NCBI RefSeq assembly: GCF_900115395.1
Contig: NZ_FOWE01000004.1
Span: 248,001 to 312,000, forward strand
DNA from: Geodermatophilus obscurus
GTDB taxonomy: Bacteria; Actinomycetota; Actinomycetes; Mycobacteriales; Geodermatophilaceae
Reading direction: 5' to 3'
Length of the DNA: 64,000 nucleotides
The notes below the pieces were generated by a model. That model worked only from the letters and a program-made list of their open reading frames with translations, ran no database searches and was not told the DNA's origin. The position numbers and the translations under genes were made by a program. Below, piece after piece: positions 35,452 to 58,535 of the stretch. Numbering within the stretch: position 1 is the first letter of the stretch; each line of letters opens with the position of its first letter.

Positions 35452-35457
35452 TAGAGT
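35452..35457 (+). promoter_or_regulatory. Probable -10 box for surface-polymer operon
   Basis: TAGAGT ends 9 bases before the ATG at 35467, with no ribosome site; a leaderless start for the long glycosyltransferase-exporter operon is likely. Confidence 0.4.
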
Positions 35458-35466
35458 GACTGCGCC

Positions 35467-36528
35467 ATGACTGAGACGTACGCACCGGCGCCTGACGGTC
35501 ACCCCATCGAGTGGATCGCCACCGAGACGGAGCGCGCCTGGCCGTCCGTGTCGGTCGTCATGCCCGTCCTCAACGAGGCGCGGCACCTGGCCACCAGCGT
35601 GGTCGAGATCCTGGCCCAGGAGTACGGCGGCGACGTCGAACTCGTCATCGCGCTCGGTCCGTCCCGGGACGACACCGACCGCATCGCCCGCGAGCTGGCG
35701 GCCGGCGACAGCCGGATCAAGCTGGTCCGCAACCCGACCGGGCGCACCCCGGCCGGGCTGAACATCGCCGTCCAGGCGTCCAGCCACGGGATCATCGCCC
35801 GCGTCGACGGGCACGGCATCCTGCTGGCCGGCTACCTCGAGCGGGCCGTGCGCCTCCTCGAGCGGACCGGGGCTGCCAACGTCGGTGGGCTGATGCTCGC
35901 CGTCGGCGAGACCGGCTTCGAGCAGGCGGTCGCCCGGGCGTACTCCTCGAAGGTCGGCCTCGGCGGCGGCAGCTTCCACGTCGGCGGCGTCGAGGGTCCG
36001 GCCGACACCGTCTACCTCGGGGTGTTCCGCCGCGAGGTGCTCGAGCGGCTCGGCGGCTTCGACGAGCACTACCACCGCGCGCAGGACTGGGAGCTCAACC
36101 ACCGCATCCGCCAGTCCGGCGGGGTGGTGTGGTTCTCCCCGGACCTCGCGGTCACGTACCGCCCCCGCTCCTCCTGGACCGAGCTGGTCCGGCAGTTCTT
36201 CCACACCGGCCGCTGGCGCCGCGAGGTCATCCGCCGGCACCCCGACTCGGTGCGCCCCCGCTACCTGGCCCCGCCGGCCGTCACCGCAGCCATCGTCGCC
36301 GGGACCGCCGCCGGCGTGGCCGGCGCGGTGACCGGCCACCAGGCCCTGCAGTGGGGCTGGCTGGCGCCGGCCGCCTACTGCGTCGGGGTCGTGAGCGCCG
36401 CCGCGGCGGAGTCCGAGGGCCTGTCCTGGCGCGCGCGGGCCTGGCTGCCCGCCGTCCTCGCCACCGTGCACCTCAGCTGGGGCAGCGGCTTCCTCTTCGG
36501 CAGCCGTCCGTGCGGCGGTGGCCGGTGA
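35467..36528 (+). CDS. Family 2 glycosyltransferase (ExoA-like)
   Basis: A 353-residue GT-A enzyme opening VSVVMPVLNEARHLATSVVEIL at residue 28. Nucleotide-sugar binding is seen in DDTDRI and a DGHG (ARVDGHG) in place of the common DxD. An acceptor/base motif AQDWELNHRIRQSGG is near residue 212. Two or three C-terminal hydrophobic segments (about 275-345) suggest membrane association. It looks like ExoA-type transferases of succinoglycan synthesis. First gene of the exporter operon; GTGA overlap with the permease gene. Confidence 0.88.
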   Translation: MTETYAPAPDGHPIEWIATETERAWPSVSVVMPVLNEARHLATSVVEILAQEYGGDVELVIALGPSRDDTDRIARELAAGDSRIKLVRNPTGRTPAGLNIAVQASSHGIIARVDGHGILLAGYLERAVRLLERTGAANVGGLMLAVGETGFEQAVARAYSSKVGLGGGSFHVGGVEGPADTVYLGVFRREVLERLGGFDEHYHRAQDWELNHRIRQSGGVVWFSPDLAVTYRPRSSWTELVRQFFHTGRWRREVIRRHPDSVRPRYLAPPAVTAAIVAGTAAGVAGAVTGHQALQWGWLAPAAYCVGVVSAAAAESEGLSWRARAWLPAVLATVHLSWGSGFLFGSRPCGGGR

Positions 36529-37379
36529 CGGCGACCGCCGAGCGCGTCGAGGTGCCGGTCCCGGTGTCCGCGCGGCACCCCCGGCGCCCACGGCGCGGGA
36601 TCACGGCCCGCCCGGCCGCGCTCTGGGGACGGCGCCGCGCGGTGCGCCTGCTCGTCGCCCGCGACCTCAAGGTCCGCTACGCCTCATCGGCGCTGGGCTA
36701 CCTGTGGTCGGTCCTCGAGCCGCTGGCGCTGGCCGGCATCTACTGGTTCGTCTTCACGCAGGTCTTCACCCGCACGGTCGGCGCGGAGCCCTACATCGTC
36801 TTCCTGCTCGCCGGGCTGCTCCCGTGGACGTGGTTCAACGGGGCGGTCACCGAGGCGGCGCGGGCGCTGCACACCGAGGCCAAGCTGGTGCGCTCCACCA
36901 ACGTGCCGCGCGAGGTGTGGGTCGTGCGGGTCGTGCTGTCCAAGGGCGTCGAGTTCCTGCTGAGCCTGCCGGTCCTGTTCGGTTTCGCCCTCGCCTTCGG
37001 GGCGCCGCTGGACTGGCACCTGGTCCTGCTGCTGCCCGGCGCGGTGCTGATGGCGGTGCTCGTCCTCGGCGTCGGCCTGCTGCTGGCCCCCATGGTCGTG
37101 CTCGTGCGCGACCTCGAGCGGGTGGTGCGCATCGCGCTGCGGCTCGGCTTCTACGCGACCCCGGTCATCTTCGCCGTCTCCGACGTGCCCGGCCGGCTGT
37201 CGGCGGTCTTCGCACTCAACCCGCTGGCCGGTGTCATCGAGCTCAACCGGGCGGGCTTCTCCACCGAGCCGGTGCAGTGGTCCCTGGTCGGGATCTCCGT
37301 CTCCGCCGCCGCCGTCCTGCTGGCCGCCGGCTGGGCCGTCTTCGCCCGGCTCGAGCGCACCGTGCTCAAGGAGATCTGA
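36525..37379 (+). CDS. ABC-2 type polysaccharide exporter permease (Wzm/TagG type)
   Basis: A 284-residue permease with six hydrophobic segments, starting after VRLLVARDLKVRYASSALGYLWSVLEPL, the hallmark of Wzm/TagG permeases. Together with the ATPase gene that follows by ATG overlap it exports lipid-linked polymers such as O-antigen or teichoic acid across the membrane. The start is the GTG at 36525 overlapping the previous stop. Confidence 0.93.
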   Translation: MTATAERVEVPVPVSARHPRRPRRGITARPAALWGRRRAVRLLVARDLKVRYASSALGYLWSVLEPLALAGIYWFVFTQVFTRTVGAEPYIVFLLAGLLPWTWFNGAVTEAARALHTEAKLVRSTNVPREVWVVRVVLSKGVEFLLSLPVLFGFALAFGAPLDWHLVLLLPGAVLMAVLVLGVGLLLAPMVVLVRDLERVVRIALRLGFYATPVIFAVSDVPGRLSAVFALNPLAGVIELNRAGFSTEPVQWSLVGISVSAAAVLLAAGWAVFARLERTVLKEI

Positions 37380-38128
37380 TGCCCGCAGCGACGGACCCGG
37401 TGGTCTCGGTCGAGGACGTGGCGGTGCGCTTCCACCGCGGACGGCGGCACCGCAGCCTGCGCGACTACCTCATCCGCGGCGAGGGCGGCGTGCGGCGCGA
37501 CGAGTTCTGGGCGCTGCGCGACGTCAGCTTCTCCATCGGGCAAGGGGAGACGATCGGCGTCGTCGGCCGCAACGGCCAGGGCAAGTCGACCCTGCTCAAG
37601 CTGATCGCCGGCGTGCTGCTGCCCGACCGCGGCACCGTCGACGTGCGCGCGGGGGTGGCCCCGCTGATCGAGATCACCGGCGGGTTCGTCGCCGACCTCA
37701 CCGTGCGCGAGAACATCGGGCTCACCGCGGGGCTGCACGGCATGTCGCGGGCGGTGATCGGCGAGCGCTTCGACGAGATCGTCGACTTCGCCGAGATCGA
37801 GGAGTTCCTCGACACCCCGTACAAGCACCTGTCGAGCGGGATGAAGGTGCGGGTCGCCTTCGCCGTCGTGTCCCGGCTCGAGGAGCCGGTGGTCCTCGTC
37901 GACGAGGTGCTCGCGGTGGGCGACAAGGTCTTCAAGCGCAAGTGCCACGCGCGCATCGAGGAGATGGTCGCGGAGGGACGGACGCTGTTCCTGGTGTCCC
38001 ACAACGACGGCGACCTGCGCCGCTTCTGCGCGCGCGGGCTGTACCTGCGGGAGGGACGGCTCGTGGGGGACGGGCCGATGGATGAGGTACTCGCGGCCTA
38101 CGCGGACGAGACCCGGGAGAGCGCGTGA
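37379..38128 (+). CDS. ABC polysaccharide exporter ATPase (Wzt/TagH type)
   Basis: A 249-residue ATPase. Walker A is GRNGQGKSTLLKLIAG near residue 62, signature LSSGMKVRVAFAV near 145, Walker B VVLVDEVLAVGD near 166 and the H-loop LVSHN near 200. The LKEI/RFHRG N-terminal strand and the short signature (LSSGM instead of LSGGQ) are typical of Wzt/TagH. There is no C-terminal carbohydrate-binding domain, so export is of the TagH/short-Wzt kind without chain-end recognition. Confidence 0.94.
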   Translation: MPAATDPVVSVEDVAVRFHRGRRHRSLRDYLIRGEGGVRRDEFWALRDVSFSIGQGETIGVVGRNGQGKSTLLKLIAGVLLPDRGTVDVRAGVAPLIEITGGFVADLTVRENIGLTAGLHGMSRAVIGERFDEIVDFAEIEEFLDTPYKHLSSGMKVRVAFAVVSRLEEPVVLVDEVLAVGDKVFKRKCHARIEEMVAEGRTLFLVSHNDGDLRRFCARGLYLREGRLVGDGPMDEVLAAYADETRESA

Positions 38129-38177
38129 GCGCGGGCCGTGCCGTGCCCGCACACGCACCCGGCGGGGGAGGGGACCG

Positions 38178-39917
38178 ATGAGTCCGAGCCTGAACACGAT
38201 CGTCCCGCTGCACGTGCAGCAGCGGGTGTACCGGGCGCTGCCCGCGCCGGCGTGGCGGGTCGTCCGCGACGTCGGCCGGGGGTCGACCTCCCTGCAGGCC
38301 GCGGCCCGCGACCTGCGGCTCGAGCGCATGCGCCGGGCCGCGGCCGACCGGGTCGAGGGCCCGGTGACGGCGGTGCGCTACCGGGGCGAGCGGTTCCTGG
38401 CCCGCCCCGTCGACACCTTCTCCGCCTCGGCGGTCCTCGCGGCCAACGCGGCGTTCGTGGCGGACGCGCTCGACGGGGCCGGCATCCGGTACCTGGTCGT
38501 CGACGCGCCGGTGAACGGCCGCCGGGTGCTGGCCGTGGCCGAGCACGACCGGGCGGCCGCGTGGGCCGCGCTGGACGCCGCGGCGCGGCGGGACCCCGCC
38601 TACCGGCAGCAGGTGCACCCCCGCGGCAACGAGCGCAGCCGGCGGCTGTCCCGCCCGGCCGGCCGCGTCCCGGCGGGGGACGCGTACACGGTGTTCCGCG
38701 TGCTGGCCGCCCCGGGCGCGGCCGAGGCCCTGTGCGGGCCGGAGCTGGGGTGCGTGCTCGAGTTCTGGCGCGTCCTGGCCGAGGACCAGCCCGACGACCA
38801 CACCACCGGTGAGCCACTGGCGGCCGGGTCGTGGGTCGCGCCCCGCCGCAACCCGTGGGTGGACGCCCTCCCCAGCACGATCGGCGAGCCGGCCCGCTGG
38901 GACGTCGACGGCGTCAGCCGGCCGGCCCTCCCCGTCCTCACCCCCCGGCACGCCTACGACGTCGACTTCCCGGTCGACGTCGTCTACACCTGGGTGGACG
39001 GCAGCGACCCCGCGTGGCGGGAGCGCAAGGCGGCCGTGCACTCCGCCGTCGGCCTCGGCGAGCTCAACGAGTTCGCGAGCAACGAGTCCCGCTTCCTGTC
39101 CCGCGACGAGCTGCGGTACTCCCTGCGGTCCCTGGACATGTACGCCGGCTGGGTCCGCCACGTCTACCTCGTCACCGACGACCAGGTGCCGCCGTGGCTG
39201 GACACCGACAACCCGCGGCTCACCGTCGTCAGCCACCGGGAGCTCTTCGGCGACCGGGGCCGGCTGCCGACCTTCAACTCGCACGCGATCGAGTCGCAGC
39301 TGCACCACGTCGAGGGCCTCAGCGACCACTTCCTCTACCTGAACGACGACTTCTTCTTCGGCCGCCCGGTCCGCCCGCGCCTGTTCTTCGAGGGCAACGG
39401 CATCGCGCACTTCTTCCCGTCGACGGCGAAGCTCGGCCTGGGGCCGACCGGGGCCTTCGACCGGCCGGTGATGAGCGGCGGCAAGAACAACCGCGAGCTG
39501 CTCTTCAAGGCCTTCGACCGGACGGTCACCAACAAGTTCAAGCACGCGCCGAACGCGCTGCTGAAGGACGTGCTGGCCGAGATGGAGGAGCGCTTCCCCG
39601 AGCAGTTCGCCGAGACGGCGGGCCACCAGTTCCGCCACCCCGGGGACCTGTCGGTGGTCTCGGCGTTCCACCACCACTACGCCTACCTGGCCGGGCGTGC
39701 CGTGGAGGGCCGGATCCGGTACCTCTACGCCGACATCGCGGCCCCGGAGACCGCCCGGCGGCTCGAGCGGCTGCTCGAGCGCCGCGACGTCGACACGTTC
39801 TGCCTCAACGACCACGACACCTCCGGTGTCGATCCGCTGGAGCAGCAGCACATGCTGCACGGCTTCCTGTCCCGGTACTTCCCCCTGCGCAGCAGTTTCG
39901 AGAAGAGCGAGTCGTGA
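38178..39917 (+). CDS. Stealth-family sugar-phosphate transferase
   Basis: A 579-residue protein of the stealth family, which makes phosphodiester-linked capsule or wall polymers. An N-terminal part (1-250) is family-variable. The conserved regions follow: CR1 FPVDVVYTWVDGSDPAW near 270; CR2 FNSHAIESQLHHVEGLSDHFLYLNDD-type segment near 390-415 ending FFFGRPV; CR3 (APNALLKDVLAEMEERFPEQF, HQFRHPGD) near 485-515; CR4 CLNDHDT near 550. ATG 38178 is 4 bases after GGGGAGGGG. GTGA overlap with the next gene. Confidence 0.92.
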   Translation: MSPSLNTIVPLHVQQRVYRALPAPAWRVVRDVGRGSTSLQAAARDLRLERMRRAAADRVEGPVTAVRYRGERFLARPVDTFSASAVLAANAAFVADALDGAGIRYLVVDAPVNGRRVLAVAEHDRAAAWAALDAAARRDPAYRQQVHPRGNERSRRLSRPAGRVPAGDAYTVFRVLAAPGAAEALCGPELGCVLEFWRVLAEDQPDDHTTGEPLAAGSWVAPRRNPWVDALPSTIGEPARWDVDGVSRPALPVLTPRHAYDVDFPVDVVYTWVDGSDPAWRERKAAVHSAVGLGELNEFASNESRFLSRDELRYSLRSLDMYAGWVRHVYLVTDDQVPPWLDTDNPRLTVVSHRELFGDRGRLPTFNSHAIESQLHHVEGLSDHFLYLNDDFFFGRPVRPRLFFEGNGIAHFFPSTAKLGLGPTGAFDRPVMSGGKNNRELLFKAFDRTVTNKFKHAPNALLKDVLAEMEERFPEQFAETAGHQFRHPGDLSVVSAFHHHYAYLAGRAVEGRIRYLYADIAAPETARRLERLLERRDVDTFCLNDHDTSGVDPLEQQHMLHGFLSRYFPLRSSFEKSES

Positions 39918-42835
39918 GCCCCACCGCCACAGCACCTGTCGAGGGACCGAGCCCGGCGCGGCCCCGGTTCAGCGTCGTCTCGGCCGTCTACAACGTCGCC
40001 GAGTACATCGAGGCCTTCCTGTCCTCGCTGGACCGGCAGACCTACGGCATCGAGAATCTCGAGATCATCCTGGTCGACGACGGGTCGACCGACGGTGCCG
40101 GTGAGATCGCTCGTCGGTGGGCGGAGTCGACCCCGGCGCGGGTCCACGTGATCCGTCAGGAGAACGCCGGCCAGGGCGCGGCCCGCAACGCCGGGATCGA
40201 GCTGGCGACCGGCGAGTGGGTGACCTTCGCCGACCCGGACGACGTCCTGGCCGACGACTACTTCAGCGAGGTGGCTGCCTTCCTCGGCACCCAGCGCAAG
40301 ACGCCGGACCTGCTCGCCACCCGGCTCCTGGTCTTCACCGACGACCCGGCCGCGCACGTGGACAAGCACGCGCTCCGCAAGAACTTCGGCCGGGGCAACC
40401 AACTGGTCGACATGAGCCAGTACCCGAACCGGATCCACCTGTCGGCTGGGACGGCGTTCCTGCCGCTGGACCGGCTGCGCGCGAATGGGAACAGGTTCGA
40501 CCCGCGCATCCGGCCGACCTTCGAGGACGGTCACCTCATCGGTGTCCACCTGCTCGAGTCGGCCGCCCCGCTGGTGGGGTTCATCGCGTCCGCCGGCTAC
40601 TACTACCGCAAGCGCGCCGACGGGACGTCGTCGGTGCAGTCGGCGTGGACGCGGGACGACAAGTACCTCGCCGTCCCGCGTTACGGGTACCTCGACCTCC
40701 TCCGCCGTGGCGCGCAGCGGTACGGCCGGCCACCGGTGTGGCTGCAGAACACCGTGCTCTACGACCTGCTCTGGTACTTCAAGGCCGACAGCAGGCTCAT
40801 CTCTGCCACCGGCGCCGTGCGGCCGGAGGTGCAGGACGAGTTCCACGCCCTGTGCCGCGAGATCTTCGCCCTGATCGACGTCGAGACGATCATGGGCTTC
40901 CAGGTCTCATCCACCGCCTACTGGCTGCGCAATGCCCTGGTCGTCGGCTACAAGGACCTGCGGACCAGGCCGAGCCAGGTCCGCCTCGACCAGCTGGACG
41001 AGCGCCAGCGGCTGGTGCGCGCCCGCTACACCTACGGCGGACCCCGGCCGCGGGAGGAGTTCTCGTGGCGCGGGCGGCAGGTCGAGCCGGTCCACCAGAA
41101 GGTCCGCTCGATCGAGTTCTTCGGCCGGGCGGTCGCCCAGGAGCGGATCGTGTGGCTGCCGGCGGACGGGACCCTGCGCATCACGCTCGACGGCCGGCCG
41201 GTCCCGCTGTCCACCCGGGCGCCCAGCGACCTGCCCTACCAGGTCACCGCGCTCCGCCTGTCCAAGGAACTGGGCGCCTCGCGGCCCGACCTGGCCTCCG
41301 GACCGGACGTCGGCGCCACCGGACTCGTACGCGTCGTCGGTGCTCCGGCGCGGTGGCTCTCCGCTCTCGTCACGTGGTTCGCGGCCTGGGTCGACCGCGA
41401 GCAGTGGACGGCTCGCATCACCCGACGCCGAGCCGCGGGTCCCTCCGCCCGGCGGCGGTACGCCGACGCCTGGGTCCTGATGGACCGACAGGAGCAGGCC
41501 CAGGACAGTGCCGAGCACCTGTACCGCTACCTCAAGCGCAAGCGGCCGCAGGTCAACGCCTGGTTCGTCCTCGACCGGCAGTCCCCGGACTGGCGACGGC
41601 TGCAGCGAGAGGGCTTCAAGCTGGTCGCGCACGGGTCCGTGCAGTGGCGCATGTTGCTGCTCAACGCACGACACGTGGTGTCCTCGCACGCCAACGCGTT
41701 CGCGATGGCCCCCCTGCCGCACGCCCTGTACGGGCGGCCGCAGTGGCAGTTCACCTTCCTGCAGCACGGGGTGGGCAAGGACGACTACTCGCGCTGGCTG
41801 AACGACAAGCGGATCTCCCTCCTGATGACGACGACGGAGGCCGAGGAGCGGTCCTTCACCGGGGACGGGACGCCGTACGTGTTCACCACCAAGGAGGTCA
41901 AGCGGACGGGGCTTCCCCGCCACGACGCCCTGCTGGCGAAGGCGCGGAAGCTCGCCGATCGGGACGTGGACCGCATCCTCGTCATGCCGACGTGGCGCCG
42001 GTCCCTGGCCGAGGGGATGCCCGAGTCGCTGACCCCGGAGGAGAGGGCGGCGGCCTTCCGCGCATCCGAGTACGCGCAGCACTGGTTCGGCCTGCTGCAG
42101 GCCCCGGAGCTGCGCCAGGTGGCCGAGCGCACCGGGTCCCGCGTGGCGTTCCTGCCCCACCCCAACATGACGCCGTTCCTGCACGACAGTGACGTCCCGG
42201 GGCACGTGGAGCTGCTGCGGTGGGCGGACGTCGACGTCCAGGACGTGTTCGCCCGCACGGCGCTGCTGATCACGGACTACTCGTCGATCGCGTTCGAGGT
42301 CGCGCTGCTCGGCCGGCCCACCGTCTACTTCCAGTTCGACCGCGACGAGTTCTTCTCGGGCGCGCAGCCCTACCGCCGCGGCTACTTCAGCTACGAGCGC
42401 GACGGTTTCGGGCCCGTGACGACCTCGCTGGAGGAGGCCGTGTCGGCCCTCGAGAAGCTCGCCGTCGAGGGCCTGCGGCCCGACGAGGCGATCGAGCGCC
42501 GCATCCGGGCGACCTTCGGCGAGCCGGCCGGCGACGCCTGCTACCAGGTGTTCAAGGCCATCCGCGAGCTCGACCGACCGGTCCGAGCCCAGGTGGTCGC
42601 CGGTCCCAGTGGGGTCGAGGTGGCGGCCGGCGACGCGGCGGCAGTGGTCGAGGGACCGGGGACGCCGACGACGGAGGGTCTGGCGCCCGGCGACGGGCTC
42701 ACCGGCGCCCAACTGGTCGAAGACGCCCTGAACGACGCCGCACTGCACGAACCGGAACTCGCCGACGAGGGCCTCTCCGAGGACTTCGAGGCGGTCGGCG
42801 CCGACGGCGTGACGGTCGGGGCGGACCAGCTGTGA
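39914..42835 (+). CDS. GT2 glycosyltransferase fused to CDP-glycerol-type phosphotransferase
   Basis: A 973-residue two-domain protein. The GT2 domain occupies about residues 18-330 (RFSVVSAVYNVAEYIEAFLSSL, VDDGSTDGAGE, FADPDDVL). A linker of about 200 residues follows. The TagF-like domain, about 520-895, has LQHGVGKDDYSRWLN, TGLPRHDALL, MPTWRRSL, FLPHPNM and ITDYSSIAFEVALLGRPTVYFQ. The last 75 residues are acidic and low in complexity (AGDAAAVVEGPG and so on). One chain could add both a sugar and a polyol phosphate. Start at GTG 39914. Confidence 0.92.
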   Translation: MSPTATAPVEGPSPARPRFSVVSAVYNVAEYIEAFLSSLDRQTYGIENLEIILVDDGSTDGAGEIARRWAESTPARVHVIRQENAGQGAARNAGIELATGEWVTFADPDDVLADDYFSEVAAFLGTQRKTPDLLATRLLVFTDDPAAHVDKHALRKNFGRGNQLVDMSQYPNRIHLSAGTAFLPLDRLRANGNRFDPRIRPTFEDGHLIGVHLLESAAPLVGFIASAGYYYRKRADGTSSVQSAWTRDDKYLAVPRYGYLDLLRRGAQRYGRPPVWLQNTVLYDLLWYFKADSRLISATGAVRPEVQDEFHALCREIFALIDVETIMGFQVSSTAYWLRNALVVGYKDLRTRPSQVRLDQLDERQRLVRARYTYGGPRPREEFSWRGRQVEPVHQKVRSIEFFGRAVAQERIVWLPADGTLRITLDGRPVPLSTRAPSDLPYQVTALRLSKELGASRPDLASGPDVGATGLVRVVGAPARWLSALVTWFAAWVDREQWTARITRRRAAGPSARRRYADAWVLMDRQEQAQDSAEHLYRYLKRKRPQVNAWFVLDRQSPDWRRLQREGFKLVAHGSVQWRMLLLNARHVVSSHANAFAMAPLPHALYGRPQWQFTFLQHGVGKDDYSRWLNDKRISLLMTTTEAEERSFTGDGTPYVFTTKEVKRTGLPRHDALLAKARKLADRDVDRILVMPTWRRSLAEGMPESLTPEERAAAFRASEYAQHWFGLLQAPELRQVAERTGSRVAFLPHPNMTPFLHDSDVPGHVELLRWADVDVQDVFARTALLITDYSSIAFEVALLGRPTVYFQFDRDEFFSGAQPYRRGYFSYERDGFGPVTTSLEEAVSALEKLAVEGLRPDEAIERRIRATFGEPAGDACYQVFKAIRELDRPVRAQVVAGPSGVEVAAGDAAAVVEGPGTPTTEGLAPGDGLTGAQLVEDALNDAALHEPELADEGLSEDFEAVGADGVTVGADQL

Positions 42836-48123: not shown

Positions 48124-48398
48124 GCCAGGCCCGGGCGCCTGCGTGGGCGAGTCCCCGCGGATCGCCCGGGACGTCCGACGGTGCCTGTTGTCCGGGGGAC
48201 GCCAGCGCGAGGCTGAACACGGCGAGTGCCTGGCGGTTGCCCCGGCAGGGCCGAGGCAGCCGGCCGACGCATCGGCAGAGCAGAGCTGTGCGATGCACTG
48301 TGCCCCATCCCAGCCGCGGCTGAGGATGGTGCAGCGCCCTGGCCGTCGGACGTCCTCTCCTCCGTGCACCCCGACCCGGCTCCATTGGAGGCCTCCCC

Positions 48399-49931: not shown

Positions 49932-49942
49932 GCCGGGAGCGC

Positions 49943-49980
49943 CCGCGGCCGGCGTCCCCCGGGAGGGACGCAGGCCGCGG
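49943..49980. terminator. Hairpin between convergent genes
   Basis: CCGCGGCC (49943-49950) plus GCGTCCC (49952-49958) pair with GGGACGC (49965-49971) plus GGCCGCGG (49973-49980): a 15-bp stem with one bulged base on each side and a six-base loop. Confidence 0.82.
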
Positions 49981-49992
49981 TGCGTCCGGGGG

Positions 49993-51240
49993 TCAGCGGC
50001 GGGAGAGCGCGGCGTGCCGGCCCGCCGGCGCGAAGGACTGCGGGGGCATCCGCGTCGTCTCGTCGTCGGGGAGGTCCGCCGCCACGTTCCGGCCGCGGAC
50101 GGCGGCGGGCGCGGCCGCGGCGGCCGCCGGCGCGACGGACGGGGCCCCGGCCGGGTGCCGGCGGGCCGGCTCCTCCAGCGTCCGCTGCACGCTGCGGCGC
50201 AGCCGCGCCGAGAACGGGCGCTCGACGTACCGGTGGACCAGCCAGGCCAGCGCGAGTCCCACACCCACCGCGAGGGCCAGCACCAGGTGCCCGGGCAGCC
50301 GCGGGCTGAGCAGCTCGATCACGTACCGGCCCCAGAACTCGTGCACCAGGTACAGGGGGTAGGTGAGGGCCCCGAGCACGGTCAGCCAGCCCCAGGAGAC
50401 CGCGCGCAGCCGGGTCATCGACGCGGCGGCCACGACGGCGAAGCAGCCCAGCGTCACCACCCACACGACGACGGAGCTGTGCTCGACGGCCGTGATGTCG
50501 TCGATGCGTCCGCGGGCGCCGTGGTCGGCGGCGTTGGCGGCGAAGACGGCGTTCCCCGCGACGACGAGCCAGGCCAGCAGCGAGTGGCCCTCGCGGGTGA
50601 TGAAGAAGAGCATCATGCCGCCGGCGAACAGCGGGGCGTGGGTGGGCATGAGCACGGCCTCCAGCAGCGGCGAGCCGGTGCTGCCGGCCACGGCGGCGGC
50701 CACCGGCCACAGCGCGCAGAACGCCAGGAGCCGGCCCCGGGTGATCCCGACGACCATGAGCAGGCCGACCAGCACGTAGAACCGCAGCTCGATCCAGAGC
50801 GTCCAGTAGACGCCCTCGAGCCGGTGCACACCCCACGCCTCGTGCGCCATGGTCAGGTTGACCAGCACCTCGCCCACGTCGGTAGGACGGCCCTCCGGCC
50901 ACAGCACCAGCAGCAGGAACGCACTCAGCAGCGCGCCGGCCCAGTAGGCGGGGAACAGCCGCCCGATCCGCGAGGCGGTGTAGGAGGCCACCGAGCGGTC
51001 CCAGGCCGTCATGAGGATGACGAACCCGCTGATCACGAAGAAGAACTCGACCCCGAGCGTCCCGTACGCCGCGTACTGCGACAGCGTGGGGAAGACCCGG
51101 TCGGGCGTCGTCCCCCACACCTCGCTCTCGCGCGCCGTGAAGTGGAAGCCGACGACGGACATCGCGGCGACGAAACGCAGGCCGTCCAGCACCCGGAAGC
51201 GCGGCGGCGGCTCGACAGCCGGAGAGCTGAGGGTGACCAC
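49993..51240 (-). CDS. Acyltransferase 3 family membrane protein
   Basis: A 415-residue O-acyltransferase of the OafA type with about ten membrane helices. RFRVLDGLRFVAAMSVVGFHF carries the catalytic-type His near residue 33, GVEFFFVISGFVI is the second family motif, and a Arg/Tyr-rich loop (SYTASRIGRLFPAYW) follows. The last 70 residues (EEPARRHPAGAPSVAPAAAAA) are a disordered cytoplasmic tail. It probably acetylates surface glycans. It is alone on its strand between two + genes. Confidence 0.92.
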   Translation of the reverse strand: MVTLSSPAVEPPPRFRVLDGLRFVAAMSVVGFHFTARESEVWGTTPDRVFPTLSQYAAYGTLGVEFFFVISGFVILMTAWDRSVASYTASRIGRLFPAYWAGALLSAFLLLVLWPEGRPTDVGEVLVNLTMAHEAWGVHRLEGVYWTLWIELRFYVLVGLLMVVGITRGRLLAFCALWPVAAAVAGSTGSPLLEAVLMPTHAPLFAGGMMLFFITREGHSLLAWLVVAGNAVFAANAADHGARGRIDDITAVEHSSVVVWVVTLGCFAVVAAASMTRLRAVSWGWLTVLGALTYPLYLVHEFWGRYVIELLSPRLPGHLVLALAVGVGLALAWLVHRYVERPFSARLRRSVQRTLEEPARRHPAGAPSVAPAAAAAAPAAVRGRNVAADLPDDETTRMPPQSFAPAGRHAALSRR

Positions 51241-51417
51241 TCCGTCACGCTAAAGGCGGGGTCCGGGGGAGGGAGGTACCTCGCACCCGGCCGGGGGCGC
51301 ACCCGACGCCTCCGCCACACGCGTCACGCGCGCCCCGCGACACGGACGGGTGAGCTGGCCTCAACGTCGCCCCTCATCTGCCGATCACCTCGGGGACCGG
51401 ACCCTGGGAGGGCGCAC

Positions 51418-52740
51418 GTGATCGGCAACCGGCTCCGTCGACGGCCCCTGGGCGCGGCCCTGCTCACCGCGGTCCTGACCACCGCGCTCGCGGCCGGCAC
51501 GGCGACCGCGACACCCGCCGCGGCGGCCCCGGTCACCGCGGCCGCCTGGAGCGGCACGTCGGCGCACCCGTTCAGCGACCCGGTCTGGTTCCCGCTGCGC
51601 GACCCGGCCCGCGTCTCCTGCACGTTCTCCAACCCGGGCACGCCGGCGTACCCGGCGGGCTGCAACGGCTACCACGGCTACTGGGCGATGGACCTGCTCG
51701 GCGAGAAGGGCGACCCCGTCCACGCCGCCGGCGCCGGCGTCTTCCACGTCGGCGCGCGCGACACCGGCTGCCGCACGTCGGGCAGCGAGACCAGCGGCAC
51801 GTGGGCGTGGGTCGACCACGGCGGCGGCCTGGTCACCAAGTACAACCACCTCGACACGATCACCGCGGGCCTCGACGACGGCGAGCTGGTCACCCCGGCC
51901 ACGCGGATCGGGACCATGGGCAGCACCGGCGACGTCGCCCCGTGCAGGACGAACTACCTGCACTTCGAGGTGCGCACCGGCGGCATCACCGGACCGCGGA
52001 TCGACCCGCGCACGCTGTACGCCTGCGAGGGCTCGACCCGGCGCAGCTACCCCGGGCACTGGGGCTACCGCTCGTGGAACGACCTGCCCAAGGCCCAGCA
52101 GTGGACGCCGACCCTGACGAATGCCTGCCTCCCGGCCGCGGCCGCCACGCCGTCGGCGCCCCAGCGGCCCACCGCCACCCGCGGGGACCGGACGGTGCGG
52201 CTGTCCTGGGCGCGCCCGGCGACCTCGCCGTCGACGATCGACCGCTACACGATCGCGACCGAGATCTGGGGGCCCAGCGTGGGCGCCTGGCACTCGACGA
52301 GCTACCGGACGGTGCCGGCCTCGCAGCTGTCGACCACCTTCACCGGCCTGGACAACGGCCGCACCTACCGCTTCCGCGTCGTGGCCCACAACGCGGCCGG
52401 CCACAGTGCCTGGACCGGCTGGGTGAAGGGCATCCCGGCCACCGCCCCGCTCGCCCCGCGCACCGACCGCAACCTCACCGCGGGGAGCACCTACGTCCGG
52501 TTCGGCTGGTACGGCAGCGTCCCGCAGGGCGCGCCGGTCACCTCGTACGAGGCGCGGATCCAGTACTGGGACGGGTCGCGGTGGACCGCGTGGACCTCCG
52601 TCCGGGTGCCGGCCGCCGAGCTGACGTACCGCTGGGACGGCCTGCGCCGGGGCACCGTCCACCAGGTGACGGTGCGGGCCCACAGTGCGGCCGGCAGCAG
52701 CCCGTGGGGCACCACCCGCAAGCTCACCACCCTCCCGTGA
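51418..52740 (+). CDS. Secreted M23-type peptidase with two fibronectin III domains
   Basis: A 440-residue exported protein. A signal peptide (RRRPLGAALLTAVLTTALAAGTATATPAAA) precedes an M23 domain, about residues 45-230. Metal-site candidates are His86 and Asp92 in YHGYWAMDLLG (His-x5-Asp), KYNHLD near 145 and YLHFEV near 180. The usual His-x-His motif is Tyr-Leu-His here, so one catalytic His is missing. Two FN3 domains follow (SAPQRPTATRGDRTVRLSW and TYVRFGWYGSVP). It could cut peptidoglycan or, if inactive, only bind it. GTG 51418 follows GGGAGGG. Confidence 0.87.
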   Translation: MIGNRLRRRPLGAALLTAVLTTALAAGTATATPAAAAPVTAAAWSGTSAHPFSDPVWFPLRDPARVSCTFSNPGTPAYPAGCNGYHGYWAMDLLGEKGDPVHAAGAGVFHVGARDTGCRTSGSETSGTWAWVDHGGGLVTKYNHLDTITAGLDDGELVTPATRIGTMGSTGDVAPCRTNYLHFEVRTGGITGPRIDPRTLYACEGSTRRSYPGHWGYRSWNDLPKAQQWTPTLTNACLPAAAATPSAPQRPTATRGDRTVRLSWARPATSPSTIDRYTIATEIWGPSVGAWHSTSYRTVPASQLSTTFTGLDNGRTYRFRVVAHNAAGHSAWTGWVKGIPATAPLAPRTDRNLTAGSTYVRFGWYGSVPQGAPVTSYEARIQYWDGSRWTAWTSVRVPAAELTYRWDGLRRGTVHQVTVRAHSAAGSSPWGTTRKLTTLP

Positions 52741-52940
52741 CGCGCGAGCGGTCCCGCGACGCGACCGCCTGACCGCACACCCTGACGGGCGGCTCCCGTC
52801 GTCGGCGGGACGGCGGGCGGCGATGATGACCGGGTGTCCGCCCGACCTCCGAGCGCACCCGGGACCCCGGGCGGTCCGTCCTGAGCCAGGGCCGGGCCGG
52901 AGGGCGCGGGCGGTGGTCACTGCCGCTCGCCCTGCCGGTC

Positions 52941-54005
52941 GTGCTGGCCGTGGGAGCGGCGCTCGTGCTCGGCGGCGCGGAGCCGACCTCCGGGACGGCC
53001 CCCGCGGCGCTGACCGGTGCCCCGCGGACGAGCCCGCAGGCCGCAGCCGAGCCCGGGCCGGCGTCGGAACCGAAGGCGGAGCCCGAGCCGACCGCGACGG
53101 TCACGGCCTGGCACTGGAACGTCGCGGGCAACACCCTGCACGGCGGCTCGGTCACCGACGGGCTGGTCGACGCCGTCGTCGCCTCGGTCCTCGCCACCGG
53201 CGCAGACCTCGTCTCGCTCAACGAGGTCTGCGAGCAGCAGTACGCGGCCGTCGGCGCCCGGCTGCGGGAGCTCGGGTGGCCGGCCGACCCGGCCGCGTCC
53301 TCGGCCTTCCGGGCCACGCTGGCCGGCCCCGACGTGTGCGCCGGCCGGCCGGCCGGTCTCGCGGTGTTCAGCGCCCACCCGGTCGGCGCGGTCGAGGCGG
53401 TCACGCTGCCCCACGACGGCTCGCGGGAGCAGCGGGCCCTGCTGTGCGTGTCCGCGCGCGACCCGGCGGGGCTGCGTTTCTGCACCACGCACGTGACCAC
53501 GAGCGGGGGCGCGTCGCCGGTGGACGGCCGGCCGCACAACGAGGCGCAGCTCGCGGCCGTGCTCGCCTCCGTGGAGGCCGGCCACGCCGCGGGCGACACC
53601 GTGGTCGTCGCCGGGGACCTCAACGCCCAGCCGCACTACCGCCGGCTCGACGGCTGGTACGCGCCCGGGACGGCGGGCTCGGGAGGCGGGCGCGGCAGCT
53701 ACCGGGAGCTCGACGACACCGATCCGGGGTGCCCGGGCACCGGCGAGTGGACCGCCACCGGCCCGGCCGGCGCCCCGCCCCCGTGCGGCGGCGGCGCGCC
53801 GTGCACGCCGGCGGACACCCGTGGCTGCGCCAAGATCGACCACCTGTTCGTCCGGCAGGACCGCATCACCGGCGCCTACACCGCCGACGCCCTCGACACC
53901 CCGCTGACCTGCACCTCCGTGGCCGGCCGGCCGGACCTGCCCGCCGGCGCGTGCTCCGACCACCGTCCGCTCGTCGGCACCGTCACCGTGCAGGTGCGCC
54001 GCTGA
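52941..54005 (+). CDS. Secreted endonuclease/exonuclease/phosphatase-fold protein
   Basis: An EEP-fold hydrolase, about 354 residues from GTG 52941. Catalytic motifs: WHWNVAGN, SLNEVC (metal Glu), THVTTS, AGDLNAQP near residue 225 and CSDHRPLVG near the C-terminus. The N-terminus is hydrophobic (VLAVGAALVLGG) but has no basic residues; the frame is open back to 52830 and the extension (GGRGRWSLPLALP) would complete a signal peptide, perhaps from the CTG at 52881. The start is therefore uncertain. The substrate may be nucleic acid or a phosphodiester. Confidence 0.85.
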   Translation: MLAVGAALVLGGAEPTSGTAPAALTGAPRTSPQAAAEPGPASEPKAEPEPTATVTAWHWNVAGNTLHGGSVTDGLVDAVVASVLATGADLVSLNEVCEQQYAAVGARLRELGWPADPAASSAFRATLAGPDVCAGRPAGLAVFSAHPVGAVEAVTLPHDGSREQRALLCVSARDPAGLRFCTTHVTTSGGASPVDGRPHNEAQLAAVLASVEAGHAAGDTVVVAGDLNAQPHYRRLDGWYAPGTAGSGGGRGSYRELDDTDPGCPGTGEWTATGPAGAPPPCGGGAPCTPADTRGCAKIDHLFVRQDRITGAYTADALDTPLTCTSVAGRPDLPAGACSDHRPLVGTVTVQVRR

Positions 54006-54009
54006 GCGG

Positions 54010-54822
54010 TCAGCCCGCGCGCAGGCGCGAGGACGACACGATCGCCACGAAGTGCCCCGCCACGGCCAGCAGCGACGCCGGGATCAGCGCGACCAGCAGC
54101 ACGTGCGTGCCGGTCAGACCCCCGGCGACGAGGTCGACCACCGCGAAGACGAGCACGATCAGGCTCAGCTCGATCGAGTGGTACAGCCGGTGGAACGGCA
54201 CGAAGCGGGCCAGCCGCCGCAGCCGGGCCAGGCCCTGGGCCCGCGGCGCCGTCGTCACCTCGTCGTCGGCCACGCGGGGCAGGCCGGCGGCCGCCCGCGC
54301 GACGTGCACCATGTCGTTGAGGGCCTTGTTGAGCACGATCACCAGGGCCAGCAGCGCGCCGAGGCAGGCCCAGCCGAACCCGTCGCCGTCGAGCAGCGCG
54401 CCCGGGCCCCCCGCCGCGCGCACGCCCAGCCCGAGCGGGATCAGCGACTCGGCGGTGTAGTGGCCGAACCGGTCGAGGAAGACCCCCATCGGGCTGGAGG
54501 TGGCGCGCCAGCGGGCGACCTCGCCGTCGCTGGCGTCGAAGAGCATCTGCAGCTGCGCGCACAGCACCGACAGCAGCGGCCCGGCGATGCCGGGGACCAG
54601 CAGGGCCAGGCCCGCGCCCCAGCCGAACAGGATCATCAGCCAGGTGACGTTGTTCGCCGACAGCCCGGCCCGCACCAGCACGCGGGTGAGGTAGGGCGAG
54701 ACCTGCCGCATGTAGAGGTCGCCGGTCCAGTGCTCGGCGGTGCGGCGGCCGCGGATCGCCGGCGGCTGGGTGACCTCGCGCAGCTGGGCGATCGTGGGCC
54801 GGGCGGGACGCTCGGCGGTCAC
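54010..54822 (-). CDS. CDP-alcohol phosphatidyltransferase family protein
   Basis: A 270-residue membrane enzyme with about six helices. The family motif DASDGEVARWRATSSPMGVFLDRFGHY is near residues 92-119: D-x2-DG-x2-AR-x8-G-x3-D-x3-x, in which the fourth Asp, the presumed base, is His. That change may be normal in this subfamily. It would join a CDP-activated alcohol to an acceptor alcohol. GTG 54822 overlaps the stop of the TagF-like gene (GTGA). Last gene of a four-gene minus-strand run. Confidence 0.85.
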   Translation of the reverse strand: MTAERPARPTIAQLREVTQPPAIRGRRTAEHWTGDLYMRQVSPYLTRVLVRAGLSANNVTWLMILFGWGAGLALLVPGIAGPLLSVLCAQLQMLFDASDGEVARWRATSSPMGVFLDRFGHYTAESLIPLGLGVRAAGGPGALLDGDGFGWACLGALLALVIVLNKALNDMVHVARAAAGLPRVADDEVTTAPRAQGLARLRRLARFVPFHRLYHSIELSLIVLVFAVVDLVAGGLTGTHVLLVALIPASLLAVAGHFVAIVSSSRLRAG

Positions 54823-56057
54823 CGGAGGGCCCGCGCCGGCGCGGCCTGCAGCGCGTCGCGCTCCCGGATGACCGCGTCGACCGCGCCGAGGAACCGCTCG
54901 AGCGCCGCCTCCGGGTCCGCGCCGCCCAGGTAGTGCTCCACCAGCTCCGCCCGGCGCGCCCGCTCCGGGTCGTCGGCCAGGCAGCGGCGCACCAGGTCGC
55001 CGGCGCCGGCGGCGTCCTCGGCGGCCAGCCGGGGGAGGGCATCGAGCAGCGGCGAGGGCCCGACGACGGCGCCCGGCTCGGCCGGGACGGTGACCACGAC
55101 GGGCCGGCCGGTCGGCAGCCACTCGACGGCCAGCGAGGACACGTCGGTGACGAGCACGTCGGCGTCGGCGAAGGCCTCCGGGACGGACCGCCCGGGGTCG
55201 ACGACGCTGCCGGTCGCGGCCACGCCCTCCTCGGCGAACAGGGCCCGCAGCGCGGTGTCGGCCGCCCGCACGTCGGCCCGGTTGGCGCCGGTGCGCGGGT
55301 GGGGCCGGTAGACGACGCGGTACCCCGCGGCCAGCAGCGAGCGCACCAGTGCGACGCCGTGGCTGCGCACCGAGCTGTAGGACATCGACTGCTGCGCGCC
55401 CTCCCAGGTGGGCGCGTACAGGACGGTGACCGGGGCGCCCGCGGGGCGCTCCCGGGCCGGCAGGCGCTCGAGTCCCGGCCGCCCGACGTGCACCAGTCGG
55501 TCGGCGTCGAACCACATGAGGGTGTCCAGGACCCGGTCGGCGCCCGCCTGCCCGGCCACGAACACCCGGTCGTAGGCCTTGAGCTGGTTGGAGGCGGAGA
55601 CGGCCTTGTCGCTGTCGCCGTGCCCGAGGTGGACGTGGGCCAGCTCCGGCCACCGCAGGAAGGCGAAGTTGCGGGGGTGGTGGCTGACGTAGAGGGCCAC
55701 GGCCACGCGGCTGCGCCGGATCAGCCCCTCCATCGTCGCGGTCCAGGCCACGCAGAGCACCGGCAGCGCGGTCACCTGCCGCAGCCGCGCCGTCGTCCGG
55801 CTGTCCTGGGTCAGGACGACGACGCCGTGCCGCTCGTGCAGCGCGGTGAGCGGGCCCAGCCACTGCTCGAGCTGGTAGGCGTTGCGCAGCGGCTCGGGGA
55901 AGAAGACGACGACCCGCTGGTCGAGGACGACGTCACCGAGCCGGGCGTCCTCCCCGAGGGCGTCGGGCTCGCCGCCGGGCTGCAGGCCCAGGCGCCGGAC
56001 GAGGCGGCCGGCCGACGAGCGCAGCCGGGCGGGGGTGAGGGGGAAGAGGGCAGGCAC
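54819..56057 (-). CDS. CDP-glycerol/ribitol-type phosphotransferase (TagF-like)
   Basis: A 412-residue GT-B protein of the glyphos-transferase family. VHLGHGDSDKAVSASNQLKAYDRVFVAGQAG near residue 150 corresponds to the family's HG-x-x-K region. VTVLYAPTWEG near 230, YRPHPRTG near 270 and LVTDVSSLAVEWLPTGRPVVVTVP near 325 are the CDP-binding motifs. It probably transfers a polyol phosphate from its CDP form. There is no fused GT2 domain, unlike the product of 39914-42835. GTG 56057 follows CCAGGAG. Confidence 0.9.
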   Translation of the reverse strand: MPALFPLTPARLRSSAGRLVRRLGLQPGGEPDALGEDARLGDVVLDQRVVVFFPEPLRNAYQLEQWLGPLTALHERHGVVVLTQDSRTTARLRQVTALPVLCVAWTATMEGLIRRSRVAVALYVSHHPRNFAFLRWPELAHVHLGHGDSDKAVSASNQLKAYDRVFVAGQAGADRVLDTLMWFDADRLVHVGRPGLERLPARERPAGAPVTVLYAPTWEGAQQSMSYSSVRSHGVALVRSLLAAGYRVVYRPHPRTGANRADVRAADTALRALFAEEGVAATGSVVDPGRSVPEAFADADVLVTDVSSLAVEWLPTGRPVVVTVPAEPGAVVGPSPLLDALPRLAAEDAAGAGDLVRRCLADDPERARRAELVEHYLGGADPEAALERFLGAVDAVIRERDALQAAPARALR

Positions 56058-56148
56058 GCGGGAGCTCCTGGAGTTCGTTCGCCCGCACGCTACCTGCCGG
56101 TCACCTGGCCGGGGCCCGGCGCCGGGACCCGTGCGGCGGGTGTGACGC

Positions 56149-57024
56149 TCAGATGACCGGCGGGCGCCCGTGACGGGCCATGCGGACCACGGTGCCCCAC
56201 CGCAGCGGCCGCCGCCCGCCGCCGGCGGGGCTGCGCCAGCCCTCCCACCAGCCGGCGAACCAGGGCCGTAGGGTGGCCGGTGCGCGGACCGAGCGCACCA
56301 CCTGCAGCACGGTCCAGGACGCGACGTAGGGCACCCCGAGCACCCAGGGCAGGTTCCGGCGGGCCAGCCAGACCCGGTTGCGGGCGTTGAGCCGCAGGTA
56401 CTGGGCGTGCCGGGTCTGTGACGTCCGGGGGTGGGAGACGGCGACGTCCCCGGCATACCAGACCGTGGAACCGGCGTCCCAGACCCGCCAGGCCAGCTCG
56501 ATGCCCTCGTGGGCGTAGAAGAACGGTGCCGGCCACCCGCCGGTGGCGTCGAAGACGCTGCGCCGCACGACGACCGCGCCCTCCCACACCGAGAACGCGG
56601 GGCTCGGCTGGCGGGGGTCGCCGACCCGCAGGCGCGGCGTCCAGCGCCGCGGCGCCGGCCCGCCGTCGTCGGCGTCGACCCGCGGCTGCACCAGCCCGAG
56701 GCCCGGGTCGGCGGCGAACCGCGCGGCGACGCCGGCCAGCCAGCCGGTGCCGGTGAGCGCGGCGTCGTCGTCGAGGAACAGCAGCAGGTCGCCGGAGACG
56801 TGCGGGACGCCGGCGTTGCGGCCCGCCGGGATGCCCAGGTTCTCGGGCAGCGCCAGCGCGCGGACCTCCTCGGGCAGGCCGGTGGGCGTCCACCCGTTGC
56901 CGACGACGAGGACGTCGGTCCGCACGCCCTCCTGCACCCGCACCGACTCCAGCGCGGCGGCGAGGGTCTCCGGCCGCCGTCCCTGCGTGAGGACGACGAC
57001 GCCGACGTGAGGATCCGGTCGCAC
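56149..57024 (-). CDS. Family 2 glycosyltransferase
   Basis: A 291-residue GT2 enzyme: VGVVVLTQGRRPETLAAALESV, LVVGNGWTPTG, AGRNAGV near residue 66, LLFLDDDAAL (DxD) near 83 and the acceptor motif FYAHEGIELAWRVWDAG near 165. It resembles galactofuranosyl- or rhamnosyltransferase-like GT2 enzymes; the sugar is unknown. It starts 14 bases after the stop of the cytidylyltransferase-SDR gene and 91 bases before the TagF-like gene. Confidence 0.92.
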   Translation of the reverse strand: MRPDPHVGVVVLTQGRRPETLAAALESVRVQEGVRTDVLVVGNGWTPTGLPEEVRALALPENLGIPAGRNAGVPHVSGDLLLFLDDDAALTGTGWLAGVAARFAADPGLGLVQPRVDADDGGPAPRRWTPRLRVGDPRQPSPAFSVWEGAVVVRRSVFDATGGWPAPFFYAHEGIELAWRVWDAGSTVWYAGDVAVSHPRTSQTRHAQYLRLNARNRVWLARRNLPWVLGVPYVASWTVLQVVRSVRAPATLRPWFAGWWEGWRSPAGGGRRPLRWGTVVRMARHGRPPVI

Positions 57025-57038
57025 GGGTACCCGCCGGA

Positions 57039-58535
57039 TCAGCGCGCGCGGACGGCCAGCGGGTCCACCCCCGCGGGCAGCACGTCACCGGGCTCCTCCT
57101 CGTGGAGGACCTCCGCGGCGACCGAGGCGGACAGGTGGCTGGAGAGCTTGTCCTCGCGGCGGACGTCGACGATGTGCCCGGTCCAGGACGAGACGAGCAC
57201 GTCGAGCGAGGTCTCGGCGACGGCCCCGGAGGTCAGCAGCGTGCCCTCGGGCTCCTCCCCGAACGCCTGGGTCCGCATCGGGGTGGCGGTCCGCTCGGGG
57301 TTGACGCAGTTGACGCGCACCCCGTCGGCGGTCCACTCGTCGGCCAGCGCCTGCGTCAGGTTGACGACCGCGGCCTTGGCGGAGGAGTAGAGGCTGTAGC
57401 CGCTGCGCCCCCGGGTGTAGGAGCTGGAGGTGAAGAGCAGCAGCGACCCGCGGGTCCGCTTCAGGTGCGGGTGGAACACCTGCGCGATGTGGACGGGCGC
57501 GAGGTAGTTGACCTCGGTCGCCATGTAGACGGTCTCCTCGCTGGTCTCCGCCAGCTCGCCGCGGGGGAGGATCCCGGCGGTGTTGACCACGTGGTCGATG
57601 CGGCCCGTGGCAGCCAGCACCTGCTCGCAGGCGGCCACGATGTCGGCGCGTCGCTCCACGTGCGTGCCGGTGTCCGAGCGGCTGAAGGAGAAGGCGTCGG
57701 CCCCGTGGGACTCGGCCAGGCGCACGATGTCGGCGCCGATCCCGTAGCTGCCGCCGAAGACGACGACGGTCTTGCCGGCGAGCGCGGCGCGGTACTCCGA
57801 GTCGTCGGCGGGCCGCGGGGCGTCGTGGCTGTCGAGCTGGAAGAGCTTGTCGGCGAGGTAGACGTCGATCGGCTCGGTGACCTTCATGTTCCGGTCCTCG
57901 CCGCGCACGACGGCGATCGGGACCTCGGGGGCGTAGCGCAGGACGACGGTGCAGTCGTCGGTGGCCTCGAACGCGGGGTCCCGGGCCGCCCGCTCGTAGG
58001 CCCGCCGGATCACCGAGAGACGGAAGCACTGCGGGGTCTGACCGCGGCGGAGGAGGTGGCGCTGCAGGACGTCGTCGATCGTGGTCCCGGTGGCCGCGTC
58101 CACCTGGATGACCGTGTCCGCCGACGGGATCGCGGTGTCGACGGCCTCGTAGGTCTCCAGGGCGTCGACGCAGTCGGCGATGACCCGCTGGCTCAGCAGC
58201 GGCCGGACGGCGTCGTGGAGGACGACGTTGCACTCCTCGTCGCCCAGGGCGTCCAGGGCGCGCTGCGTGGTGGCGTTGCGCGTGGCGGCACCCTCGAGCA
58301 CGCGGGTCACCTTGGGGTAGCCGCCCGGGCGGAGGATGGCGTGGACGGCGTCGAGGTGGCCCGGCGTCATCATCACGACGATCTCGTCGATGAGCGGGGA
58401 GGCGTCGAGGAGCCCGATGGTGTGCTCGATGATCGGCTTGCCCGCGACCCGGATCAGCTGCTTGGGGATCGACAGCCCGACGCGCGTGCCCGTTCCCCCG
58501 GCCAGCACCACCGCTACGTTCCGCAATCTCGCCAC
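57039..58535 (-). CDS. Bifunctional cytidylyltransferase / short-chain dehydrogenase (CDP-ribitol type)
   Basis: A 498-residue fusion. Residues about 1-235 are an IspD/TarI-like cytidylyltransferase (VVLAGGTGTRVGLSIPKQLI, ATRNATTQRAL, HDAVRPL). Residues about 255-470 are an SDR with GGSYGIGADIV (cofactor), NTAGILPRG and SSSYTRGRSGYSLYSSAKAAV, giving Ser and the YxxxK pair. The same order is known in Haemophilus Acs1/Bcs1, which reduces ribulose-5-phosphate and makes CDP-ribitol. GTG 58535 matches the family start. First gene of the minus-strand run feeding the two phosphotransferases. Confidence 0.88.
   Translation of the reverse strand: MARLRNVAVVLAGGTGTRVGLSIPKQLIRVAGKPIIEHTIGLLDASPLIDEIVVMMTPGHLDAVHAILRPGGYPKVTRVLEGAATRNATTQRALDALGDEECNVVLHDAVRPLLSQRVIADCVDALETYEAVDTAIPSADTVIQVDAATGTTIDDVLQRHLLRRGQTPQCFRLSVIRRAYERAARDPAFEATDDCTVVLRYAPEVPIAVVRGEDRNMKVTEPIDVYLADKLFQLDSHDAPRPADDSEYRAALAGKTVVVFGGSYGIGADIVRLAESHGADAFSFSRSDTGTHVERRADIVAACEQVLAATGRIDHVVNTAGILPRGELAETSEETVYMATEVNYLAPVHIAQVFHPHLKRTRGSLLLFTSSSYTRGRSGYSLYSSAKAAVVNLTQALADEWTADGVRVNCVNPERTATPMRTQAFGEEPEGTLLTSGAVAETSLDVLVSSWTGHIVDVRREDKLSSHLSASVAAEVLHEEEPGDVLPAGVDPLAVRAR

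Follow-up and report, generated by a model that had tools for sequence, protein, structure and literature searches.

A 23.7-kb island in the genome of the soil- and rock-dwelling bacterium Geodermatophilus obscurus (assembly GCF_900115395.1; 4.96 Mb, 22 contigs) probably encodes an ATP-binding cassette (ABC) transporter-dependent system for a phosphodiester-linked surface glycopolymer, either a teichoic-acid-like wall polymer or a capsule. The island lies in the 64,000-nucleotide stretch analysed here (contig NZ_FOWE01000004.1, positions 248,001 to 312,000; hereafter the window, whose first nucleotide is position 1). Judged from gene families and motifs, we put the probability of this reading at roughly 60%. 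Gene content, families, motifs, boundaries, co-conservation and module swapping were observed directly in the genomes compared. An earlier sequence-only reading of this DNA had proposed that stealth and TagF-type enzymes stand together here in one system for a surface polymer related to polyol phosphates. Our analysis supports this proposal. Every gene type it had named is present where it had been placed, with a family match over a curated cut-off. To its list we add a DUF6270 protein, a GT92/GT2_4 glycosyltransferase, an M23 peptidase with fibronectin type III domains (M23-FN3), an endonuclease/exonuclease/phosphatase family protein and a further GT2 glycosyltransferase (56149-57024).

Boundaries and operons of the island

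The island (35316..58977, genes on both strands) is one discrete block between a LuxR response regulator gene (34644-35312) and a PIG-L deacetylase gene (58986-59720). Counting the window's own genome, the LuxR gene is present in 25 of 26 genomes of the genus and the PIG-L gene in all 26. Both lie on one contig in 25 genomes, separated in 23 of these by 50-3518 bp; the exceptions are the window (23.7 kb) and a congener, G015 (16.6 kb). In DNA alignments with seven short-gap congener sites, homology ends at 35,306-35,332 and restarts at 58,978-58,998. Because it breaks off and resumes there, we placed the island edges at about 35,316 and 58,977, so that the span of the sequence-only reading (35467-58535) coincides almost completely with the real unit. 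In G. pulveris (G031) a related cluster is found about 104 kb away from the LuxR-PIG-L site. In our reading the island is horizontally variable.

Two operons and accessory genes fill the island. The plus-strand operon carries, in order, genes for a GT2 glycosyltransferase, TagG, TagH, stealth, a GT2-TagF fusion and the DUF6270 protein; the minus-strand operon comprises IspD-SDR, GT2, small TagF-like and CDP-alcohol-phosphotransferase-like (CDP-OH_P) genes. Of the eight gene junctions, five are overlaps of 1-4 bp and three are gaps of 14 to 91 bp; because such overlaps occur in both operons, their genes appear to be translationally coupled. Components were called from family matches above curated Pfam cut-offs.

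The first plus-strand gene (35467..36528) encodes a GT2 glycosyltransferase (PF00535/PF13641) found in only 3 of the 26 genus genomes, with copies 74-82% identical in G015, G. pulveris and Blastococcus TF02-09. Overlapping it by 4 bp is the gene for a TagG/Wzm-like exporter permease (36525..37379, plus strand; PF01061, ABC2_membrane; NCBIfam Wzm/KpsM relatives), followed by that for a TagH/Wzt-like exporter ATPase (37379..38128, plus strand; NCBIfam TagH, E 5e-45, and PRK13545, E 8e-53, both under equivalog cut-offs). A TagG-TagH fusion in the first list of open reading frames (ORFs) proved to be an artefact of overlapping frames; these are two genes with a one-base overlap. The next gene (38178..39917, plus strand), the sole stealth gene detected in the genome, encodes a predicted CpsY-like sugar-1-phosphotransferase. 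All conserved regions CR1-CR4 are present (PF17101, PF11380, PF17102 and PF17103, each over its cut-off), and the alignment to the CpsY structure 8j2n (E about 1e-82 to 2e-82) spans the whole solved domain.

It is followed by the gene for a predicted polymerase of 973 aa (39914..42835, plus strand), in which an N-terminal GT-A (GT2) domain (PF00535) and a C-terminal TagF-like domain (PF04464) form one chain and which matched TagF/TarL structures. No full-length homologue was found in 59 other genomes of the family, where matches cover the GT2 or the TagF domain alone. Two fusions considered as homologues, one of 1146 aa in G015 and one of 897 aa in a Micrococcales metagenome-assembled genome (MAG), were rejected as different enzymes.

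On the minus strand, the IspD-SDR fusion (57039..58538; PF01128 and PF00106) is a predicted CDP-ribitol synthase of the TarIJ/Bcs1 type. An IspD-like cytidylyltransferase and a short-chain dehydrogenase/reductase (SDR) are joined in one chain, which is the domain layout of Bcs1, and ribitol-5-phosphate cytidylyltransferase structures are among the best structural matches. Copies 57-87% identical occur in six other loci, and a 50% identical homologue, annotated as a bifunctional cytidylyltransferase/SDR, lies inside a Parabacteroides polysaccharide locus. A housekeeping role in the methylerythritol phosphate pathway was ruled out; a canonical IspD over the cut-off is encoded at C15:455216. The second core gene (56149..57024, minus strand; PF00535) encodes a GT2 glycosyltransferase with 64-78% identical copies in six other loci. 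The third (54819..56057, minus strand; PF04464, 38.5 bits, cut-off 22.1), whose start codon is uncertain and could reach 56093, encodes a small TagF-like transferase and candidate primase. This protein is 46-82% identical across loci and shares 34% identity with a 658-aa TagF-like enzyme of Blastococcus. A sequence search against solved structures gave no match for it; its structure model, of low-to-moderate confidence, adopts a GT-B fold, and TagF is one of its structural matches.

Core and chain-building genes in relatives

A first genus sample of 10 genomes, own included, yielded close CDP-OH_P homologues in G015 and G. pulveris only, the same two that carry the first-gene GT2. We then scanned 84,980 species with two short conserved peptides, a search that divergent relatives would escape. 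Eight relatives were recovered, all Actinomycetota, two being loci already known from the genus sample, those of G. pulveris and Geodermatophilus sp. LHW52908. The four-gene core (IspD-SDR, GT2, small TagF-like and CDP-OH_P) is present in seven loci: those of the window, G015, G. pulveris, Modestobacter, two Blastococcus and one member of the Nanopelagicales. TagGH was found in all six of these seven whose contig extends to it. Two more distant loci, one of them a 3.7-kb contig, hold the CDP-OH_P gene and TagGH without a recognised IspD-SDR. Since other genera also have the core together with the exporter, their co-location is not due to chance, and the co-occurrence in relatives on which the sequence-only reading had staked its proposal is borne out.

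The chain-building genes differ from locus to locus. Stealth, GT92 and M23 genes are shared by the window and G. pulveris, and a TagF-like enzyme of 600-660 aa occurs in four loci (G015, both Blastococcus and the Nanopelagicales). Stealth and this enzyme never occur together, a pattern drawn from seven loci only and uncorrected for shared ancestry. GtrA, GtrB, DUF6056 and DUF6270 genes are unique to the window among the loci compared, and Blastococcus TF02-09 has a GT2 with a TarS linker domain, a teichoic-acid glycosylation family. A fixed core with exchanged polymerase classes points to a modular locus. Because relatives keep the core genes and exchange the chain-building enzymes, the coat polymer probably varies between species, as capsule serotypes do. 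The combination of stealth and TagF enzymes that the sequence-only reading had called mixed does stand in one unit, but modular describes it better: the separate TagF-like protein belongs to the core, the stealth/GT2-TagF pair to the variable module.

Two of the loci showed further features. G. pulveris has a second stealth gene (L044:5302-8133), which lies convergent to its CpsY-like one and encodes a GT4-stealth fusion of 943 aa. The Micrococcales MAG (L053:8085-15233) encodes two CDP-OH_P proteins, one fused to DUF5941, together with TagGH, an NTP transferase and the 897-aa GT2-TagF protein, which bears an LWHGVP motif.

Predicted polymer chemistry and anchoring

The substrates, order of steps, anchor and final location of the polymer are predictions from families and motifs. 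IspD-SDR would reduce ribulose-5-phosphate and activate the product to CDP-ribitol. The core GT2, the small TagF-like transferase and the membrane CDP-alcohol transferase would then assemble a ribitol-phosphate-containing primer on a membrane lipid. Stealth would transfer sugar-1-phosphate (CpsY uses UDP-GlcNAc; PMC10668966), and the GT-A/TagF fusion would add a sugar and a sugar-1-phosphate (or ribitol-phosphate) unit to give a repeating chain. TagGH would export the polymer, which GtrA/GtrB/DUF6056, the acyltransferase and perhaps the DUF6270 protein would decorate. One of the genome's LCP ligases, encoded outside the island, may fix it to peptidoglycan.

The identity of the main chain turns on the fusion, which carries the motifs QHG (His618), LPHP (His744) and DYSS. 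Both catalytic histidines (equivalents of TagF H444 and H584) are present; His618 was aligned to the WHG/FHG of other TagFs, and His744 was located by motif only. The fusion differs from two other TagFs encoded in this genome, which read WHG, in having QHG, reported for GT-B hexose-phosphate transferases (PMC11666461). Its residue equivalent to TagF Pro447 is glycine; proline is reported there for glycerol-phosphate transferases and glycine for ribitol-phosphate transferases (PMC10299916). Taken together, these residues argue against glycerol phosphate and leave hexose-1-phosphate, which we favour, or ribitol phosphate. Since the fusion has the QHG reported for hexose-phosphate transfer, the main chain may be rich in glycosyl-1-phosphate, with ribitol phosphate confined to a linker or minor unit.

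The sequence-only reading had instead favoured a mixed sugar/ribitol-phosphate polymer. That would be a poly(glycosyl-ribitol phosphate) main chain, extended by the fusion with first a sugar and next ribitol phosphate drawn from the island's CDP-ribitol, while stealth would attach side groups. We regard this as possible, though clearly less probable than our own reading. It accounts for the CDP-ribitol synthase-like gene inside the island, for the fusion's ribitol-type glycine and for the TarS-linker GT2 of the Blastococcus relative. QHG in place of WHG speaks against it, as does the company that IspD-SDR keeps: in all loci it accompanies the small TagF-like core gene and not the fusion, which is window-only among the loci compared. 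A phosphate-containing surface polymer is likely, and a ribitol-phosphate main chain is not established. It is improbable that two or more independent glycan pathways merely abut here (a TagGH-exported polymer, GtrA/GtrB/DUF6056 glycosylation of another acceptor and a core operon that makes a membrane lipid instead of a polymer): the window-only GtrA/GtrB/DUF6056 and DUF6270 genes in a low-GC segment and the resemblance of the CDP-OH_P protein to phospholipid head-group enzymes would fit, but the core operon is found with TagGH in every locus of sufficient contig reach, across several families, and in Streptomyces, too, a CDP-alcohol phosphatidyltransferase gene is reported to be syntenic with tagGH (PMC13118837).

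Several points weigh against the phosphodiester-linked glycopolymer that we prefer. The gene set differs even between the two stealth-bearing loci. The glycine at the Pro447 position would suit ribitol-phosphate transfer (PMC10299916). The IspD domain scores under the curated cut-offs of the ribitol-5-phosphate cytidylyltransferase and IspD models (NF001183, 139 bits, cut-off 166; TIGR00453, 169, cut-off 181), and the polyol could differ. Finally, no LCP ligase, TagO or TagA is encoded within the island, so that its genes do not fix the mode of attachment or the lipid carrier. Elsewhere the genome has six LCP-domain (PF03816) genes, two PF00953 genes and one WecG/TagA-family (PF03808) gene.

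The least explained part of the island is the CDP-OH_P membrane protein (54010..54822, minus strand; PF01066, 28 bits, cut-off 22). In the window its gene comes next after the small TagF-like gene, the two sharing 4 bp, and in the other six core loci the two are neighbours. Both the Pfam match and the PF01066 fold are present: an AlphaFold2 model from nine sequences (mean pLDDT 77) gave query-normalised TM-scores of 0.51-0.56 to its best matches, PIP synthase and AF2299. CDP-alcohol phosphotransferases carry the signature D1xxD2GxxARx8GxxxD3xxxD4, in which D4 is the presumed base. The protein keeps D96, D99 and D117, but D4 is replaced by His121, invariant in 9/9 sequences; distant family homologues have Asp there in all five matches that cover the position. 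Because D4 is His121 in all nine, we classify the protein, by its sequence, as a divergent subfamily of CDP-alcohol-transferase-like proteins. The His variant might put ribitol phosphate from CDP-ribitol on a membrane lipid, so that a wall or capsule polymer would be primed or anchored by a phospholipid-type molecule in place of the usual undecaprenyl-diphosphate sugar; interchangeable polymerases (TagF-like or stealth) would extend that molecule. We consider this speculative and rather unlikely. If the protein does act in the core, it raises a new question on polymer anchoring. Its neighbourhood with tagGH is not unique to the window family, since a Streptomyces CDP-alcohol phosphatidyltransferase gene has been mentioned as syntenic with tagGH and araM (PMC13118837). 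In the literature searched, which covered few subscription journals, we found no paper pairing a CDP-alcohol phosphatidyltransferase with CDP-ribitol and no description of Geodermatophilus teichoic acids.

All parts belong to known families, and variable loci of a comparable kind have been published for teichoic acids and capsules. That the product is a new wall or capsule glycopolymer, as had been suggested, is not established. With the GT-A/TagF-like group 2 capsule polymerases CslB, Cps12B, Cps1B and Ccs2 (PMC5974469), the fusion shares the N-terminal GT-A domain, the C-terminal TagF-like domain, the two catalytic histidines and an ABC-transporter-type locus, but it is actinobacterial, has no Pfam-recognised TPR region and stands in one operon with a stealth gene. 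The stealth protein has all four conserved regions of Mycobacterium tuberculosis CpsY and aligns over its whole solved domain (PMC10668966; 8j2n), yet it sits in a TagGH operon with a TagF fusion. As in TarIJ/Bcs1 and the Haemophilus influenzae type b capsule pathway (PMC10299916), a cytidylyltransferase-SDR chain and a TagF-like transferase share a capsule-type locus, here without a Bcs3-type polymerase bearing phosphatase and ribosyltransferase domains. The capsule transition transferases CpsA/CpsC (PMC11666461) offer a parallel to the small PF04464 protein, which is separate from the polymerase and for which a primer role is likewise proposed (inferred in the window), although no LicD-type CpsC was recognised in the island. 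Of the classical (type I) wall teichoic acid pathway, the PF00953, PF03808 and PF03816 genes lie elsewhere in the genome and none in the island. Streptomyces loci for ribitol wall teichoic acid, in which teichuronic-acid-like side polymers vary (PMC13274773), also combine actinobacterial TarIJ and TagF genes with variable accessory glycosyltransferases and acetyltransferases and diversify between species; the window family differs in that it swaps the chain polymerases themselves, includes stealth and has a CDP-alcohol-transferase-like protein in its core. Two points stand out: polymerase classes are swapped while the core stays fixed, and the CDP-alcohol transferase has the His variant. Outside type I, wall teichoic acid pathways have been described as uncharacterised (PMC11666461), and a role of TagF-like polymerases in type II synthesis has been raised as a question (PMC5974469). 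Small and clearly delimited, the island lends itself to testing in a Gram-positive lineage; its constant primer/export core seems able to work with different polymerases. Between-species variation of a wall-attached Streptomyces polymer decides the targeting of umbrella toxins (PMC13274773), and polymer variation may also matter for phage binding and stress survival.

Accessory genes and neighbouring features

The segment 42,836-48,123 has a guanine-plus-cytosine (GC) content of 0.67, compared with 0.73-0.76 around it, which suggests a later insertion inside the island. No tRNA or Rfam match was found across the window as a sign of a mobile element, and no integrase or transposase among the island proteins scanned. 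The DUF6270 protein (42832..43752, plus strand; PF19786, E 2e-23), whose gene overlaps the fusion gene by 4 bp, has a GSC motif near its start and is a possible polymer-modifying esterase/acyltransferase. Next come a GtrA-like flippase (44712..45137, minus strand; PF04138), a GtrB/PgfS-like polyprenyl-phosphate glycosyltransferase (45137..46186, minus strand; PF00535; NCBIfam PgfS, E 9e-109, under the equivalog cut-off) and a DUF6056 membrane protein (46612..48123, plus strand; PF19528, E 2e-11), a candidate third component of a GtrA/GtrB side-chain module.

Between this segment and the core operon lie four genes. The GT92/GT2_4 glycosyltransferase (48399..49931, plus strand; PF13704, PF01697) has a 76% identical copy in G. 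pulveris. An Acyl_transf_3 membrane acyltransferase (49993..51240, minus strand; PF01757), with copies in G. pulveris (72%) and G015 (40%), likely O-acylates the polymer. The M23-FN3 peptidase (51418..52740, plus strand; PF01551, PF00041; 71% copy in G. pulveris) is probably secreted. Copies of the endonuclease/exonuclease/phosphatase family gene (52941..54005, plus strand; PF03372) adjoin the core in G. pulveris and Modestobacter.

The host genome has a second polyol-phosphate locus (G000:C11:440266-444503; L039:9266-13503), with genes for an NTP transferase, a TagF (TWHGTPLK), a HAD protein and a mannitol-type dehydrogenase, which possibly serves a CDP-polyol teichoic acid. A third TagF (G000:C22:174635-175681; 354 aa, TWHGTPVK) is apparently solitary; the single adjacent gene that was scanned codes for a MalK-type ABC ATPase and is no teichoic-acid gene.

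Insertion at the LuxR-PIG-L site may be recurrent, since other congeners carry different single genes there, such as ORFs of 533 aa and 455 aa (L055:4080-5681; L059:3137-4504). Just upstream of the island, a PspC-domain histidine kinase gene stands with the LuxR response regulator gene (33538-35312), the latter kept genus-wide, and it is possible that this pair ties the island to envelope stress control.

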